From Gammaproteobacteria bacterium (lineage in GTDB: Bacteria; Pseudomonadota; Gammaproteobacteria; Eutrophobiales; Eutrophobiaceae), in the NCBI GenBank assembly GCA_024278135.1, contig JAJRTU010000066.1:1-42401 (forward strand): 42,401 nucleotides of DNA, in the 5' to 3' direction. Numbering within the stretch: position 1 is the first letter of the stretch; each line of letters opens with the position of its first letter. Of the stretch, positions 3,464-33,506 are shown in pieces. The notes below the pieces were generated by a model. The model worked only from the letters and a program-made list of their open reading frames with translations. It was not told the DNA's origin and ran no database searches. The position numbers and the translations under genes were made by a program.

Positions 3464-4624
3464 TTAACTCTTCTTCAAGCGCCCGGTATCCTGGGCGTAC
3501 TTGATACGTTTATCCAGCAGAGCGGATATTTCATCCGGCGCATATCCGGCTGGCGGTGTAAATTGTCCTCTCGCGTAAATATCATCGAACACTTCTTTAC
3601 AGATGGAGACCTTGTCCGACAGGCTTCGCGGCGGCTTGCCTGAAGGAAAGCGATTGGGTGGATAGATGGGTTTTTCATAGATTTGACGGAAGCCTTCTGT
3701 ACGGACATCGACCCAGCAATTGTGTATGGTCTTGGTGCGATGATGACGCAGGGCTTCTATATCGATCCCCACCGCCAGCACCTGTTCTTCCGGATAGGGC
3801 GTGTGCCGCAACACCATGCCGGTATAGTCGATGGCAAATGAATTGCCCGGGCAAAATGCCTTCGGATAGTATGCATAGTGTACCTTGCCCCAGTGCGACC
3901 CCAGTAAATAACACATGTTGTCGTGGGCCCGCGTCCTGCGGGTAAACATCCAGAAATCCCAGGGTTCCGAGACACCTTCCACCTCCTGAATGGCGCCGGG
4001 ATGACAGATCACTTCCACGCCGTTATAGCCGAGGGCACGAGACACCTCCGGTGTACAGCCATCGTGGCAGGTCATGGTCCCCAGTTTGCCGATAGGCGTA
4101 TCAACGACGGGGAACAGATCCTTGATATCCCCGCCCAGTTTTGCGCAATACTCATCAAACATATCATGAGGGCTCGTTCCCAGGCCGATATAGGCGGGGA
4201 TATGCCACTTGTGGTACTTCAGGACGATATCTCCGTCCGGACCGATGATGAAATTCGTATTAAACCAGCGATCGGGAAACTCGGGAATTTCCTCACAAAC
4301 GCCGCCGGCGACGATGTAGAGATCATATTCTTTGGCTATCGCCGCCAGTTGATCGGTTTCCGGTCCGGGAATAGTCACCACCTTGTCCATTTGATCCTTG
4401 ATCGTACTTTCACCTTTACCCGGCGTACCGACACCCTGCATGAAATATTCAGGCAACACAACGAGCCGAACCGGCTGTTCCCAAAAATAACCCACCCCGA
4501 AATGGATCATATTGCAGACCCGATCCAGGTTTTTTTTGATGCCGGCACGATCTTCGACCACGGTCACTTCGGGCTGAACCACCAACGCGGTGTAGGGCTC
4601 AATTCTTTCTGCTTTTCTCGACAT
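3464..4624 (-). CDS. Nitrilase/carbon-nitrogen hydrolase superfamily (aliphatic amidase/formamidase-like)
   Basis: E-K-C triad context: VVLPEYFMQG, VLKYHKWHIP, GTMTCHDGCTPE. Start placed at the internal ATG (4624) preceded by AGAGG; the ORF extends to 4660. Confidence 0.85.
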   Translation of the reverse strand: MSRKAERIEPYTALVVQPEVTVVEDRAGIKKNLDRVCNMIHFGVGYFWEQPVRLVVLPEYFMQGVGTPGKGESTIKDQMDKVVTIPGPETDQLAAIAKEYDLYIVAGGVCEEIPEFPDRWFNTNFIIGPDGDIVLKYHKWHIPAYIGLGTSPHDMFDEYCAKLGGDIKDLFPVVDTPIGKLGTMTCHDGCTPEVSRALGYNGVEVICHPGAIQEVEGVSEPWDFWMFTRRTRAHDNMCYLLGSHWGKVHYAYYPKAFCPGNSFAIDYTGMVLRHTPYPEEQVLAVGIDIEALRHHRTKTIHNCWVDVRTEGFRQIYEKPIYPPNRFPSGKPPRSLSDKVSICKEVFDDIYARGQFTPPAGYAPDEISALLDKRIKYAQDTGRLKKS

Positions 4625-7810: not shown

Positions 7811-9019
7811 CTACCAGTTCCACATAGTTCCATCTTCCAGCCTGTTGACCGGTAAATAAGCACGTTGATAAGGAAATTTTTCCGCCAGTTTTTCATCAAT
7901 GTCGACGCCATGTCCCGGCACGTCACCCGGATAGAGGTATCCCTGCTTGAACGTATAGGCATGGGGAAAGACTTCATCGGTCTCCCTGGTATGGCGCATG
8001 TATTCCTGAATGCCGAAATTCGGTACCCAACTGTCAAAATGCAACGCCGCCCCCAGGCAGACCGGGGACAGATCCGTCGCGCCATGACAACCGGTGCGCA
8101 CATGATAAAGCGCCGCCAGATCCGCGATACGGCGTAAATGGGTAATGCCGCCGGCATGGACGACTGTGCAGCGAATATAATCGATAAGTTGTTCCTGAAT
8201 CAGCGCCCTGCAATCCCAGACCGTATTGAATATTTCACCCAGGGCCAGCGGGGTCACCGTATGTTGTCGGATTATTCTGAAAGCGTCCTGATTCTCTGCC
8301 GCGACGGCATCTTCAAGCCAGAACAGACGATACTCTTCCAGCGATTTCCCCAGGCGCGCAGCCTCGATGGGGCTGAGGCGGTGATGAACGTCGTGCAGGA
8401 GATGGGGCTCAAAACCGAATTTCTCTCGAAGTTTGTCGAACAGGCCGGGAACATGGTCCAGGTATTTTTCCGTCGACCAGGTATTTTCCGTGGGCAGATC
8501 CGCATCAGCAGGTTCATAGAACATTTTATCCTTTGCTACACCGTAGGTGGAAGACAGACCGGGCACACCCGACTGGGCACGTATGGCCCGGTAACCCATG
8601 TCTATGTACCTGGCGACCTCGTCGACCGTCTCTTCGATATCCTTGCCATTGGCGTGGCCATAGACCATGACGCCTTCACGGCTTTTGCCCCCGAGCAACT
8701 GATACAGGGGCAGGCCGGCTGCTTTCGCCTTGATATCCCACAACGCAGTATCCACCGCCGCGATCGCTGTCATCGTGACCGGGCCACGTCGCCAGTAACA
8801 GCCCCGATACAAAAATTGCCAGATATCCTCGGTTTGATGGGCATCGCGACCAATCAAACAGGGAGCGACATGCTCTTGCAGATAAGCGGCTACGGCCATT
8901 TCCCGCCCGTTTAAAGTGGCATCACCGATCCCGTATATTCCTTCGTCTGTCATGATTTTCAACGTGACAAAATTGCGGCCAGGACAACTGATGATGACTT
9001 TTATGTCGCTTATTTTCAT
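7811..9019 (-). CDS. manD: D-mannonate dehydratase (ManD/RspA branch of the enolase superfamily)
   Basis: [41 protein letters not shown] and C-terminal [14 protein letters not shown] match the ManD family. Confidence 0.85.
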
Positions 9020-9085: not shown

Positions 9086-9103
9086 TAGTTTAAGCATAAA
9101 CTA
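9086..9103 (+). promoter_or_regulatory. Palindromic operator candidate TAGTTTAAGCATAAACTA
   Basis: 18-bp inverted repeat in the divergent manD/SDR intergenic region; related sites at 26635-26652 and 32342-32359. Confidence 0.55.
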
Positions 9104-9233
9104 TTTTATTCTCAGAACTCACTTCTGTCAAAAATATTTAATCAAAAGAAAACACGCAGATCATGCCCGAACAACGCTGACACCAGCAATCGAAACGAGC
9201 TTACGTTCATCACAAAGCAAAGAGACTCATGAT

Positions 9234-10118
9234 ATGGCGACTATAATACTGACCGGTTGCAGCAGTGGCTTCGGGCTGCATGGCGCTCTAGCCTTTGCCC
9301 GCAATGGCGACAGGGTTTACGCCACAATGCGAAACCCGGACGATGCCGATGCTCTGCTGGACGCTGCTGACAGTGAACGGCTCAATATAACGATCAAAGC
9401 ACTCGATGTGACGCAGTCCACGACCTTTTCAGTATTATTTCAGGACATCATGGATGAAACAGGTCGTATCGATGTACTTGTCAATAACGCAGGTATCTTG
9501 CGGGCCGGTGCGTTTGAAGATTTATCTGAAACCATGATCCGTGAAGTGCTGGAAACCAATCTGTTTGGCCCCTTGCTGCTGACAAAAGCAGTGTTGCCCT
9601 TCATGCGCAAGCAGAAGAACGGCTATATTATAATGGTCAGCTCGCTCTCCGGTCTGGCGGGTTTGGCCGGGGATGTGACTTACACTGCCGGCAAGTTTGC
9701 GCTCGAAGGCGCGACAGAAGCCCTGCGCCATGAAGTAGATCGCTGGGGAATCAAGTTGGCCCTGCTGGAAGCCGGTATGTATGCCACGAAGATTATGTCG
9801 CAAAGCCTGCCTGATGAAGCCGCTCTGCCTGAATATTATCCGGATGACTCTCCTTACCGTGCACTTATTGAAAGCAAGCTTCAGATATTACGCCAACGAA
9901 TGCCGGAAGCTCTAGACCCGGCGAGCGTCGGCAGTTTACTGGTGGATATCGCCGGCTCGGACGGTTCACAACTGCGTTGGCCTGCCGATGATGTGGCATC
10001 ACTGGTTTTGGAGAAAATGCTTGCTCAGACAGACCCGGAACGGGATGCGTTTTTACGTCAGGTTGCCGCCACAGACTGGTGGAGTGAAGGCAGGGCGAAA
10101 CCTGAAGTCGACAAATGA
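9234..10118 (+). CDS. SDR family NAD(P)-dependent oxidoreductase
   Basis: TGCSSGFGLHGA (TGxxxGxG), NNAG, and Y-x3-K site in TYTAGKFALEG. Confidence 0.9.
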   Translation: MATIILTGCSSGFGLHGALAFARNGDRVYATMRNPDDADALLDAADSERLNITIKALDVTQSTTFSVLFQDIMDETGRIDVLVNNAGILRAGAFEDLSETMIREVLETNLFGPLLLTKAVLPFMRKQKNGYIIMVSSLSGLAGLAGDVTYTAGKFALEGATEALRHEVDRWGIKLALLEAGMYATKIMSQSLPDEAALPEYYPDDSPYRALIESKLQILRQRMPEALDPASVGSLLVDIAGSDGSQLRWPADDVASLVLEKMLAQTDPERDAFLRQVAATDWWSEGRAKPEVDK

Positions 10119-24077: not shown

Positions 24078-26528
24078 CTAAATACCGCCGAAGGAGTAAC
24101 TGATATTGCCGCCGATGGTACGTGTATTCGGGCGTAGTCGAATACCACTGACACCAAAGTTCTCCTGGGTACCGGTATAATACTCTTCATCCAGCAGGTT
24201 CTGCACAAAGCCGGTAATACTCCAGCTACCCATCTCAAAACCGGCGCGCAGGTTCAGGATATCGTAATCCGGGCTCAGGTAGGGAAATTCATTCGGCCCT
24301 GAATTATGGATTTTTGTGGCATCGTTAGGTGAAGGTCCATTCAACTGAAGATTCGTTAATCCTTCGATATCGGAATACTGACCGTCACGGTGAATATATT
24401 CCAGTCGCAGCCAGGCTTCATTGTTGCCTATCGGCCAACGGTATTCACCGACAATGTTCGCGGTCAATTCCGGGGCCTTCGGCAGTCCCAGACCCTGCAA
24501 TTCGGGTCTCCAGCCACCGGAAAGTTCCACGGTTTGCTGAGAGGTAATCTCCGTATCAAGATAGCCAAATCCACCTGATACTGTCAGGTTATCTGTCAAC
24601 AGGGCAACAAACTCCATCTCAATACCGTTGCCTTCCGCATCGGGAATGTTGATGAACTGTTCAAAGTTGGTCGAAAGATTACCTGGAGTGAAGAAAAAGA
24701 AAGACTCGAACTGCAGGTTCGACCACTTCAGGTGAAATGCCGACATGTTTAAGCGCAGACGATTATCAAACAATTCCGATTTAAATCCGAACTCATAATT
24801 CCAGAGAGTTTCCTTCTGGAATTTGGTGCTGAAAGCAGGGCTGCCGGCGGCATTGGTATTGTTACCCACACTGTTGCCGCCGGGCTTGTAGCCTTTGGAG
24901 ACCATGGCATAAATATTCATTTCATCGGTCACCTGAAAACGGGCACCAAAGCGCGGGGCAAAATCAGTAAAATCCGACTCAGCCGAAGCCTCAGGACGTG
25001 GGCTGTTTGCAAAACTTTGGAAAAATGCAAACCCCGGACCACCCGGAAAACCAGGGGAACCCGGAAAACAGCATGTTGGTCCAATACTCTGTGCCAGCAG
25101 GGACTTGTCCACCTGACTGTGGGTAAAACGGCCCCCGGCAATCAGATCCAGCGTATCGGTCATGTGAAAGGTGATATCACCAAACAGAGCCTGCTCTTCC
25201 GTGACAAAGCTCTTGTCATTAAAGGCCAAACCCAGGTCTTCCGGGAACGGAGGTAACCAGCCCACACCGTTAATCGTCGCGGTGGCATTCGTGGAAATGG
25301 CCACCAGGTTGTCCTGGCTCTGATCATCCTTGGAAAACATCATGCCCATGGTCCAGTCCACCGAATCGCCACTGTAATCCAGTCGTAACTCTGTACTCCA
25401 GGAAGTACCTTTGTAGGTGTTGGTACGGTCGAGAGTATCCACGCCGCCGACCAGGTCCTGATCAAAAAAACGTTTTTGCTTCGCATCGATCACACCGGTG
25501 ATGGAGGTCAGCTTCATATTATCGTTAAACTGATGCTGTATATTTAAAATCGCCACCAGGGATTTGTTTTTGTTGAACTCAGGCAAGTCGTGAGAAAGCT
25601 GGCTGCGGTTGTTCGGCCAGAATCCGGTACCCGGGTCCTGTGCCACAGAAATACCCAATGTATCGACTGTGTCGACATCGAGGATGCCGGAGGGGACATT
25701 TTCATCGGTGCCCTGATCCGCATCGGAATAGATCACAGTTACACCCACTGTCGTATCGGCACTGAAATCCCAGTTCGCCTTGAGGCGACCGTAGAATTCT
25801 TCATAACCGCTGTTTTTGGCACCGTTGGGCGTAAACCCGTTGGCGGCGGCGGCGGGACACTCAGCAGCAGACGCACCGGTAGCGCAGGCATTGGTGACGC
25901 GGCCCCCGCTGTTCTCATACTGAAATACACCACGTACTCGAAAGTTATCAGCAAGCGGGGCGTTAATGATGCCGGTCACCCTGCCCATCTCATTGGCTTC
26001 TTCGTAACTCTCACCGCCGAGCGAAATCTTCCAGCCGAATTCGTCCGTGGGTTCATTACTTCTCAGGTTCAGTGCACCACCGACAGCATTGCGCCCGAAA
26101 AATGTTCCCTGAGGACCACGCAGCACTTCAATGCTCTGCATATCCGGGATAGTGGGATTAGCGACCTGATTCGGTACCGAGGCGACACTGAAACCGTCGA
26201 GATAGATACCGATTGAGTTGACCGTCGCATTTTCACCGGAGACCAGATTGCCAATACCGCGAATGGCGATACCCACACCTTTACTGCCGGACTGGCCGTC
26301 ATCAGTAAAAGCCACGTTGGGTGTCAGTGCCAGATAATCTCTGGCGGCGGTAATATTGGTTCGTTCGATAGTGGCGCCAGTGAACGCAGTCACGCTGACC
26401 GGGACTTCCTGCAGATTTTGTTCACGACGTTGTGCTGTTACAACAACCTCTTCAAGTGCGCTTTGAGCAAAGACGGGCATTGCCGTCGCGGCGGACAAGA
26501 CAAGACAAGACAATGTTCTTGTATTCAT
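24078..26528 (-). CDS. TonB-dependent outer membrane receptor
   Basis: 816 aa; signal peptide; EEVVVTAQRREQNLQEVPVSVTAF plug start; IEVLRGPQGTFFGRNAVGGALNLRS; C-terminal beta strand ending in aromatic residues (NISYSFGGI). Confidence 0.95.
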   Translation of the reverse strand: MNTRTLSCLVLSAATAMPVFAQSALEEVVVTAQRREQNLQEVPVSVTAFTGATIERTNITAARDYLALTPNVAFTDDGQSGSKGVGIAIRGIGNLVSGENATVNSIGIYLDGFSVASVPNQVANPTIPDMQSIEVLRGPQGTFFGRNAVGGALNLRSNEPTDEFGWKISLGGESYEEANEMGRVTGIINAPLADNFRVRGVFQYENSGGRVTNACATGASAAECPAAAANGFTPNGAKNSGYEEFYGRLKANWDFSADTTVGVTVIYSDADQGTDENVPSGILDVDTVDTLGISVAQDPGTGFWPNNRSQLSHDLPEFNKNKSLVAILNIQHQFNDNMKLTSITGVIDAKQKRFFDQDLVGGVDTLDRTNTYKGTSWSTELRLDYSGDSVDWTMGMMFSKDDQSQDNLVAISTNATATINGVGWLPPFPEDLGLAFNDKSFVTEEQALFGDITFHMTDTLDLIAGGRFTHSQVDKSLLAQSIGPTCCFPGSPGFPGGPGFAFFQSFANSPRPEASAESDFTDFAPRFGARFQVTDEMNIYAMVSKGYKPGGNSVGNNTNAAGSPAFSTKFQKETLWNYEFGFKSELFDNRLRLNMSAFHLKWSNLQFESFFFFTPGNLSTNFEQFINIPDAEGNGIEMEFVALLTDNLTVSGGFGYLDTEITSQQTVELSGGWRPELQGLGLPKAPELTANIVGEYRWPIGNNEAWLRLEYIHRDGQYSDIEGLTNLQLNGPSPNDATKIHNSGPNEFPYLSPDYDILNLRAGFEMGSWSITGFVQNLLDEEYYTGTQENFGVSGIRLRPNTRTIGGNISYSFGGI
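26494..26513. repeat. Pentanucleotide microsatellite (GACAA)4, TTGTC on the coding strand
   Basis: gacaagacaagacaagacaa read directly; lies in signal-peptide codons of the TonB-dependent receptor. Confidence 0.95.
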
Positions 26529-26634
26529 CGGGTAACTCCCCCTGTTTCAGATTTTTAATTTTCGGCGGCAAGTCTCTATATTTTATGAGGCTTAACCGCC
26601 CGCAATTTAAAGCTATTTCTATTTTCCTGTCAAG

Positions 26635-26652
26635 TAGTTCACATTTAAACTA
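26635..26652 (-). promoter_or_regulatory. Palindromic operator candidate TAGTTTAAATGTGAACTA
   Basis: Upstream of the TonB-dependent receptor start; 14/18 identical to the site at 9086-9103. Confidence 0.45.
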
Positions 26653-31079: not shown

Positions 31080-32234
31080 TCAGGACAACAGCCTGGTGAT
31101 GGCCACACCGATAAACGTGGCGATGGCGTAACCAAAGATGCCGCACATGATTCCCGGCGTGACCAGATTACGCCAGCCCCGCGAAATTGCAATCGCGGCA
31201 GTCACCGCAGGCCCTACCAATGCCGCGCCTGAAGCCACGATGGCATCGGCCAGATCCACCTTGAACAATTTCGCCACCACCAGAACAATGCTCAGATGAA
31301 CGATAATAATAAACATGCCATAGAGAAACAAATTAAATGCAGATGACAGGAACAATGTCGCACTGGTGCCTGCGCCGACAGCGGCAAAAAAGACATACAT
31401 CAGCAACATACCTATATCAAAGTCACCCTGCAGGTTAACAAGCGATTTGGGAAACACATTCGCGATGATAATGGTCAGCACGGTAATAATCAGAATATTA
31501 TAGCGCTCGATATCAAAGTGCTCTCCCAGATAATTCGATATGGCACAGATCATAAAACTGGCCGCGATGGCGGCGCTGACATGCGTGAGACGAAAATGAT
31601 CCAGCTCAGCGCTGTCTGCATGAACCTTCCTGCCTGCGGAAATATCGCTCATCACCGCAGATGGGATCATTTTCACTATCCAGGGAATGGATGGAATGGT
31701 GATTAACATAAGCAGAGCAAGATTACTGACCTGACTGCTGGCACCAATGGCAGCACTGAATTGTTCCGCAGACATCTCCACAGCCTGAGAGACGGCCAGA
31801 AAATTAACCGCACCGCCGATATAGCCGCCGGTATAGACACCCGCCACTTTAGGACCGATATCCCCCAGGTCCATCAGATAAAACCCCAGCACGGCACCGG
31901 TAATCGTCGCCATGCTCGCCACACAAAATACCAGCATAACCTTGCCGCTTTCGCTGAATATTCTGCGCAAATCCGCCTTGAACAACAACATGGGGATGGC
32001 CAGGGGGATCAAGGTCCCGCCGACGAAATCATAGACCGGGCTTTTAAAAGGAATAATATTGAAATTTGACAGGGCCATGCCGGCACTCAGAACCCAGACG
32101 ACACCGGATATTTTTTTACCTATTTCTTTGCTGTCTATCCAGAACCCCAGCCAGGCCATACCAAAAAGTGCAGCGCCCAGCGCAAAAATATTGTCATCGG
32201 CAATTAGCGGCATAGCTGACAGTGTCATATCCAT
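31080..32234 (-). CDS. DUF819 family integral membrane protein (YjcL-like)
   Basis: Multi-TM; GGYIGGAVNFLAVSQAVEMS and SGAALVGPAVTAAIAISRGWRNLVTPGIMCGIFGYAIATF. Confidence 0.87.
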   Translation of the reverse strand: MDMTLSAMPLIADDNIFALGAALFGMAWLGFWIDSKEIGKKISGVVWVLSAGMALSNFNIIPFKSPVYDFVGGTLIPLAIPMLLFKADLRRIFSESGKVMLVFCVASMATITGAVLGFYLMDLGDIGPKVAGVYTGGYIGGAVNFLAVSQAVEMSAEQFSAAIGASSQVSNLALLMLITIPSIPWIVKMIPSAVMSDISAGRKVHADSAELDHFRLTHVSAAIAASFMICAISNYLGEHFDIERYNILIITVLTIIIANVFPKSLVNLQGDFDIGMLLMYVFFAAVGAGTSATLFLSSAFNLFLYGMFIIIVHLSIVLVVAKLFKVDLADAIVASGAALVGPAVTAAIAISRGWRNLVTPGIMCGIFGYAIATFIGVAITRLLS

Positions 32235-32341: not shown

Positions 32342-32359
32342 TAGTTTAAGATTAAACTT
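32342..32359 (+). promoter_or_regulatory. Palindromic operator candidate TAGTTTAAGATTAAACTT
   Basis: Contains perfect 7-2-7 inverted repeat AGTTTAA-GA-TTAAACT between divergent DUF819-marR and hisC-like genes. Confidence 0.6.
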
Positions 32360-32390: not shown

Positions 32391-33506
32391 ATGATGCCAT
32401 CCGAAAAGAATATGACTGCCAAAGTACCGCAGGCGCGTGCCGAGATTCTTGAAATTTCCCCCTATGTACAGGGCAAAAGCGCAATCTCCGGGCAAACGGC
32501 GCCGATAAAATTATCCAGTAATGAGTCCTCTTTTGGCCCCAGCCCCAAAGCCATTGAGGCCTACCAGTCACAGGCCACCGCCCTGCACCGCTACCCCGAT
32601 GGTTCACAGTCGCCATTACGCCAGGCCATTGCCGACATTTACAATCTGGATGCCGATAAAATTATCTGCGGCAATGGTTCAGATGAAATACTCGATTTGA
32701 TCTATCGTACTTATCTTTCGTCCGGCGATGACATCATTCTCAGCGCCAATCATTTTGTGATGTGTGCGCTTTACGCGAAAATACAGGGCGCCAATATTGT
32801 GCTGGCGGGAGAAAATAATTATGTCACCAGTGTCGATGACCTGTTGAGCAAGCTGACACCCGAAACTCGAATGGTCACGTTGGCCAACCCCAATAATCCA
32901 ACGGGAACCTATCTGAATGCAGAACAAATAAGACGGATCCACTCCGGTTTACCCTCTGATGTGCTGTTCGTGATCGATGGTGCTTATGCGGAGTACGTCA
33001 CCTGCGATGATTACGACAATGCATGCGGCCTGGTCGATGAATTCGACAATGTCGTTGTCACCCGTACCTTTTCCAAAATATACGGTTTGTCAGCCTTACG
33101 TGCAGGCTGGGCTTACTGTCCCACAGCCGTTGTTGACATATTGCAACGTATTCGCTCACCTTTCAATGTCAACAGTCCTGCCATGGCAGCGGCCATCGCC
33201 GCTGTCAACGATGTGAATTACATTGACAGGGTTCGTCTGCATACTGCCGACTGGCAACAAAGGATACAAAAAGAACTGGGTGCATTGGGTATCAGGGTGA
33301 TACCCAGTGTCGCCAATTTCTATTTACTGAACTTCAACGAATGCGAGGGCAAGTCGGCCCTTGATGCAGCCGGTTTCCTTGAGACCGAAGGCATCATTCC
33401 CCGCCCTGTCAGCACCAGCGATGGCGATGATGTGCTGAGAATTACAGTGGGACTGGATGCTGAAAACGAAGCGGTGATCAAGGCCCTGACAAAATATATG
33501 TCCTGA
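32391..33506 (+). CDS. hisC: Histidinol-phosphate aminotransferase-like PLP aminotransferase
   Basis: ISPYVQGKS, LSSNESSFGPSPKA, NPNNPTGTY, TFSKIYGLSALRAGW (PLP Lys). True substrate uncertain. Confidence 0.87.
   Translation: MMPSEKNMTAKVPQARAEILEISPYVQGKSAISGQTAPIKLSSNESSFGPSPKAIEAYQSQATALHRYPDGSQSPLRQAIADIYNLDADKIICGNGSDEILDLIYRTYLSSGDDIILSANHFVMCALYAKIQGANIVLAGENNYVTSVDDLLSKLTPETRMVTLANPNNPTGTYLNAEQIRRIHSGLPSDVLFVIDGAYAEYVTCDDYDNACGLVDEFDNVVVTRTFSKIYGLSALRAGWAYCPTAVVDILQRIRSPFNVNSPAMAAAIAAVNDVNYIDRVRLHTADWQQRIQKELGALGIRVIPSVANFYLLNFNECEGKSALDAAGFLETEGIIPRPVSTSDGDDVLRITVGLDAENEAVIKALTKYMS

Follow-up and report, generated by a model that had tools for sequence, protein, structure and literature searches.

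A predicted MarR-family regulon sharing a palindromic operator in an uncultured gammaproteobacterium

Three 18-bp palindromes in a 42,401-nucleotide stretch of gammaproteobacterial DNA (hereafter the window) are probably operators of a MarR-family regulator encoded in the same stretch. This regulator is predicted to control the DUF819-marR unit, a hisC-like gene, the manD operon and a divergent SDR gene, a TonB-dependent receptor gene and, outside the window, a gene for an aldehyde:ferredoxin oxidoreductase (AOR). We read the sites as operators of the neighbouring MarR because the same sequence precedes the same genes in related bacteria. As far as sequence comparison can indicate, the proposal of a new regulon of known MarR type, an ordinary-looking circuit for catabolic and transport genes, is well supported.

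Results

The window corresponds to contig C346 of a draft genome (G000; 3.74 Mb, 88% complete, 360 contigs). The three palindromes listed in the initial annotation (Table 1) were found exactly as given, all of them outside coding sequence; the one upstream of the TonB-dependent receptor gene is the weakest, with two mismatches. Their consensus is approximately TAGTTTAAGNNTAAACTA, with the symmetric form TAGTTTAA-NN-TTAAACTA. Scanning the window with up to three mismatches returned these palindromes only, giving six two-strand matches against 0.12 expected; none of 100 window shuffles reached six, the maximum being three. When 6 Mb with the composition of the window were simulated by a first-order Markov model, no match to TAGTTTAA-NN-TTAAACTA within two mismatches arose, and a simulation with intergenic composition predicted 0.002 such sites in the 3.1 kb of window intergenic DNA sampled, where three were observed.

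Table 1. Location of the predicted operators, promoter-like sites, regulator and target genes. Positions refer to the window unless a contig or locus is named.
Feature	Position	Strand	Context or evidence
Operator-like palindrome TAGTTTAAGATTAAACTT	32342..32359	.	between divergent DUF819-marR and hisC-like
Operator-like palindrome TAGTTTAAGCATAAACTA	9086..9103	.	between divergent manD operon and SDR
Operator-like palindrome TAGTTTAAATGTGAACTA, weaker	26635..26652	-	upstream of TonB-dependent receptor gene
Promoter-like site for manD, TTGACA-17-TAAAAT	9103..9131	-	11/12 matches; operator begins at last -10 base
Promoter-like site for TonB receptor gene, TTGACA-18-TAAATT	26604..26633	-	10/12 matches; operator just upstream
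MarR-family regulator, 166 aa	30532..31032	-	Pfam MarR_2 1.7e-11, MarR 6e-10; proposed binder of palindromes
DUF819 membrane protein, first gene of DUF819-marR unit	31080..32234	-	Pfam DUF819 1.6e-70
HisC-like aminotransferase, predicted target	32391..33506	+	TIGR01141 297 bits vs cut-off 276.55
ManD-type mannonate dehydratase, first gene of predicted target operon	7811..9019	-	NF043051 760 bits vs cut-off 550
SDR oxidoreductase, divergent to manD, possible target	9234..10118	+	gene order manD, site, SDR retained in G001 and G002
TonB-dependent receptor, predicted target	24078..26528	-	Pfam TonB_dep_Rec_b-barrel 9.9e-39, Plug 2.4e-16
C160-paralogue palindrome	G000:C160:16074-16091 (L031:2801-2818); L032:2799-2816; L080:1501-1518

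A pattern search of the whole draft genome for TAGTTT-N6-AAACTA with at most one mismatch found five sites: the three in the window, one on contig C190 and one on contig C150; allowing two mismatches proved too loose (62 matches genome-wide). The C190 site (4201-4218) is an identical 18-mer between two AOR genes; the second (AOR2) probably starts some 55-60 bp further downstream. The earlier statement that no other match of such quality exists is thus correct for the window and incorrect for the genome. The regulon it proposed is supported, and 'local' is too narrow a term for it, since a second contig carries this site in front of an AOR gene. At this locus (L017:2398-6122), the two tandem AOR genes, the second preceded by the operator, are followed by genes for an FAD monooxygenase and a PLP decarboxylase.

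The fifth site, C150:2758-2775, reads TAGTTTCAAATGTAACTA followed by the repeat TAGTTTCAAATA and lies between divergent hmgA and fumarylacetoacetase-like genes. It was excluded from the regulon because it adjoins hmgA, which has its own MarR gene (C150; L016:900-1370), encoding a protein that shares 15% identity with the window MarR. HmgS, a MarR-family regulator of tyrosine degradation predicted by comparative genomics in Alteromonadales (PMC5343134), provides an analogy: in the light of its predicted regulon, the C150 site is probably better read as an operator of the hmgA-adjacent MarR. With C150 set aside, sites of this quality are confined to the window and the AOR promoter. The TAGTTTCAAAT-type repeat between the hmgA-marR operon and the divergent fumarylacetoacetase-like gene (L016:2758-2785), whose 18-mer occurs again at G006:C104:24117, is likely an HmgS-like operator.

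The proposed regulator contains a winged-helix MarR DNA-binding domain (PF12802, 44.6 bits; PF01047, 39.3 bits; both above cut-off). Among the NCBIfam equivalogs for named MarR subfamilies (BilQ, FabT, HpaR, MarR, SlyA and others), none scored above cut-off, the best being BilQ with 40 bits against 125. Among PDB structures, the MarR profile matches 3boq best (E 4.9e-23 over residues 17-156), an entry that names only a MarR-family regulator. Orthologues with 73-89% identity are encoded by 10 of 95 relatives, namely the congeners G001 and G002, G006 and G021 of genus g5, and G016, G033, G037, G041, G044 and G047 of genus g15. More distant relatives were added from the genome collection: SJ809 (L127, 68%), a Cellvibrionales MAG (L128, 56%) and a Halioglobus MAG (L129, 55%); no MarR relatives were found on viral contigs. 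In the alignment, the putative recognition helix has at its start, position 79, a serine in the proteins of g15 and a threonine in those of g1 and g5. In G016 and G021 (g15 and g5; L102 and L105), marR adjoins genes for an SBP_bac_3 solute-binding protein and ABC permeases of the amino-acid-transporter type.

The sites are conserved at orthologous promoters, a check that the initial annotation had itself proposed. In G001 and G002 the site between hisC and DUF819-marR is letter-for-letter TAGTTTAAGATTAAACTT, and in the alignment some 20 conserved bp stand out from diverged intergenic DNA. The manD site is identical in both congeners and differs by one base in G021, and the AOR2 site is present in G000, G001 and G002. 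Conservation is partial for the TonB receptor gene, whose orthologue is preceded by a counterpart in G002 and by degenerate palindromes in G006, G016 (TAATTTAGGCTTAAATTA) and G037 (TAATTCAGGCTTAAACTA). Across species, sites thus precede orthologues of manD in four genomes and of hisC/DUF819-marR and AOR2 in three congeners, with DUF819 also preceded by a site in G021. This pattern supports what the initial annotation had suggested, a predicted MarR regulon in which the regulator acts on its own transcription unit and on hisC, manD/SDR and the TonB receptor gene.

The predicted regulon also extends beyond loci of the window type, as the congeners carry a site before an alcohol-dehydrogenase/sugar-acid operon: in G001 and G002, a perfect palindrome lies between an alcohol dehydrogenase gene and the SDR2-oxidoreductase-KDPG aldolase-KDG kinase genes. 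Unlike in the congeners, no upstream site with up to five mismatches was found for the alcohol dehydrogenase and KDPG aldolase genes of the window. In G001 (C28) and G021 (C134), further hisC-like genes, adjacent to genes for ABC-type permeases, likewise have perfect palindromes in front of them. Sites with at most one mismatch number three, five, four and three in G000, G001, G002 and G021, respectively, and all 15 are intergenic, whereas 32 relatives without an orthologous marR have three such sites among the matches listed, at most one per genome. All genomes with several near-perfect sites carry an orthologous marR. In G046, a genome without this MarR, about 38 copies of TAATTTAACCTTGAACTA, mostly spaced by 675 bp, occupy C6:151007-181456; this array is a long tandem repeat and perhaps represents a giant repeat-protein gene.

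The placement of the sites relative to promoter-like sequences points to the mode of control. For AOR2, TTGATA-17-TACACT (G000) or TTGAAC-17-TACACT (G002) stands directly before the operator in the alignment. Since the manD operator begins at the last -10 base, a dimer bound there would occlude the start of transcription. With operators that coincide with the -10 element or directly follow it, repression is the likely mechanism at manD and AOR. For the site between hisC and DUF819, the promoter search found no sigma-70-type promoter. The gene marR follows DUF819 after a gap of about 47 bp, and the site at 32342 therefore implies autoregulation; judged by sequence, the promoter of this unit contains a palindrome in the 16-20-bp size range of MarR operators.

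The arrangement at the TonB receptor gene raises the question of whether MarR binds the palindromes and activates some of its targets, this gene above all. Here the operator ends one base upstream of the TTGACA of the -35 element, and the placement is similar in G002 and G006, as would suit an activator. Against this, the degenerate operator of the orthologous gene in G016 lies between TTGACA and TAAATT, a repressor position, and the operators of manD and AOR either overlap the -10 element or come after it. At the TonB receptor gene, MarR may therefore repress or activate; overall, we regard activation of some targets as somewhat unlikely.

Whether the palindromes belong to this MarR or to another regulator can be judged where the neighbourhood of marR differs. 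In G021, DUF819 (61% identical) is on a different contig from marR and each has its own site, 22 bp upstream of DUF819 (one mismatch) and about 50 bp upstream of marR (two mismatches). In SJ809, where the DNA before marR has 74% GC, the site TAGTTTAGGCTTGAACTA, with two mismatches, precedes the start of the gene by about 100 bp. For each of the sites before marR in G021 and SJ809, none of 20,000 simulated 300-bp regions contained such a site. In Halioglobus, a perfect 16-bp sister palindrome resembling the consensus, AGTATAGGCCTATACT, is found upstream of the gene for the 55% identical MarR. The occurrence of a site before marR where DUF819 is not its neighbour, together with the co-occurrence of sites and orthologous marR, supports the earlier assignment of the motif to this MarR.

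The association has exceptions. The six g15 genomes and G006 encode an orthologous MarR, yet contain no site with at most one mismatch; the surroundings of marR yielded no palindrome in G016, G033, G044, G037, G041, G047 or L128. The canonical operator may have drifted in G016 and G037, where the palindromes at the TonB receptor gene are degenerate, which is a guess. The g15 genomes, and the further MarR proteins encoded in G000 (C160, C269 and C150), leave some room for the palindromes being genuine operators of another regulator, such as one of these MarR proteins, that merely co-occurs with the cluster. We consider this quite unlikely, as the site tracks the marR promoter across different neighbourhoods in G021 and SJ809 and, in altered form, in Halioglobus; moreover, the C160 paralogue has a distinct palindrome of its own and the C150 MarR lies beside the TAGTTTCAAATGTAACTA site. 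That the likeness among the sites arose by chance, because palindrome and intergenic DNA are both AT-rich, is virtually negligible, being refuted by their conservation at orthologous promoters and by the simulation with intergenic composition.

The C160 paralogue (C160:14774-15187) shows 41% identity with the window MarR. Its own operon has in the promoter the palindrome TACTTTAACATTAAAATA / TATTTTAATGTTAAAATA, which starts with TA(T/C)TTT rather than TAGTTT. G002 has a counterpart, and G021 carries a copy of the motif as well. As read from the sequence, the operon comprises SDR, marR and enoyl-CoA-hydratase-like genes with an apparent acyl-CoA dehydrogenase relative. The paralogue and its palindrome possibly constitute a separate regulon, and a different but similar palindrome is as expected if palindromes of this kind serve as MarR-subfamily operators.

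Discussion

Returning to the window MarR as the regulator that recognises the palindromes, we propose the following hypothetical sequence of events, in which (i) MarR binds each palindrome, probably as a homodimer; (ii) it would thereby control its own DUF819-marR transcript together with the hisC-like gene, the manD operon and SDR gene, the TonB receptor gene and the distant AOR gene; (iii) at manD and AOR, bound MarR would block RNA polymerase and so repress transcription; and (iv) the repression would be relieved by a small intermediate of catabolism, probably an organic acid.

Two known systems are comparable in part. Like HmgS, the window MarR belongs to the MarR family and has been predicted by comparative genomics, and HmgS likewise controls an amino-acid catabolic operon (PMC5343134); in contrast, HmgS targets hmgAB, whereas in the window genome it is the separate C150 MarR gene that adjoins hmgA. 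YvmB/PchR of Bacillus subtilis is a MarR-like protein with a small autoregulated multi-promoter regulon, with a palindromic box, GTTYMMYMGTAAAC, that has a GTT...AAAC core and was demonstrated by gel shift (PMC4992311). The type of circuit is the same, but YvmB/PchR serves the pulcherriminic acid pathway in a different phylum, and the two proteins were compared at the level of the MarR family. Our literature search found no paper combining mannonate dehydratase, the MarR family and a regulon, which suggests that the circuit is undescribed in the literature searched; a search for the motif strings TAGTTTAA and AGTTTAAACTA gave no paper on a bacterial MarR operator among those listed. For DUF819, no functional study of the family was found by title, and one paper mentions DUF819 only as a neighbouring gene.

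The Halioglobus locus offers an indication of function. There, the gene for the 55% identical MarR lies near uxuA, KDPG aldolase, KDG kinase, HisC-like and TPP-enzyme genes, a neighbourhood that supports a connection between the predicted regulon and sugar-acid catabolism plus transamination. As a wider and tentative possibility, the protein might represent a new MarR subfamily acting as master regulator of ferredoxin-linked catabolism, joining hisC-like transamination, AOR and the mannonate/2-keto-3-deoxygluconate route. Its operator might then co-evolve with the protein, being TAGTTTAA-NN-TTAAACTA with T79, degenerate with S79 and AGTATAGGCCTATACT in Halioglobus.

In summary, the proposed regulon joins DUF819, a HisC-like aminotransferase, a ManD-type dehydratase, AOR and a TonB receptor, proteins whose roles are unclear, in one predicted response. 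It thereby provides a testable operator, regulator and list of targets for uncultured Gammaproteobacteria, in which few regulatory circuits have been worked out.
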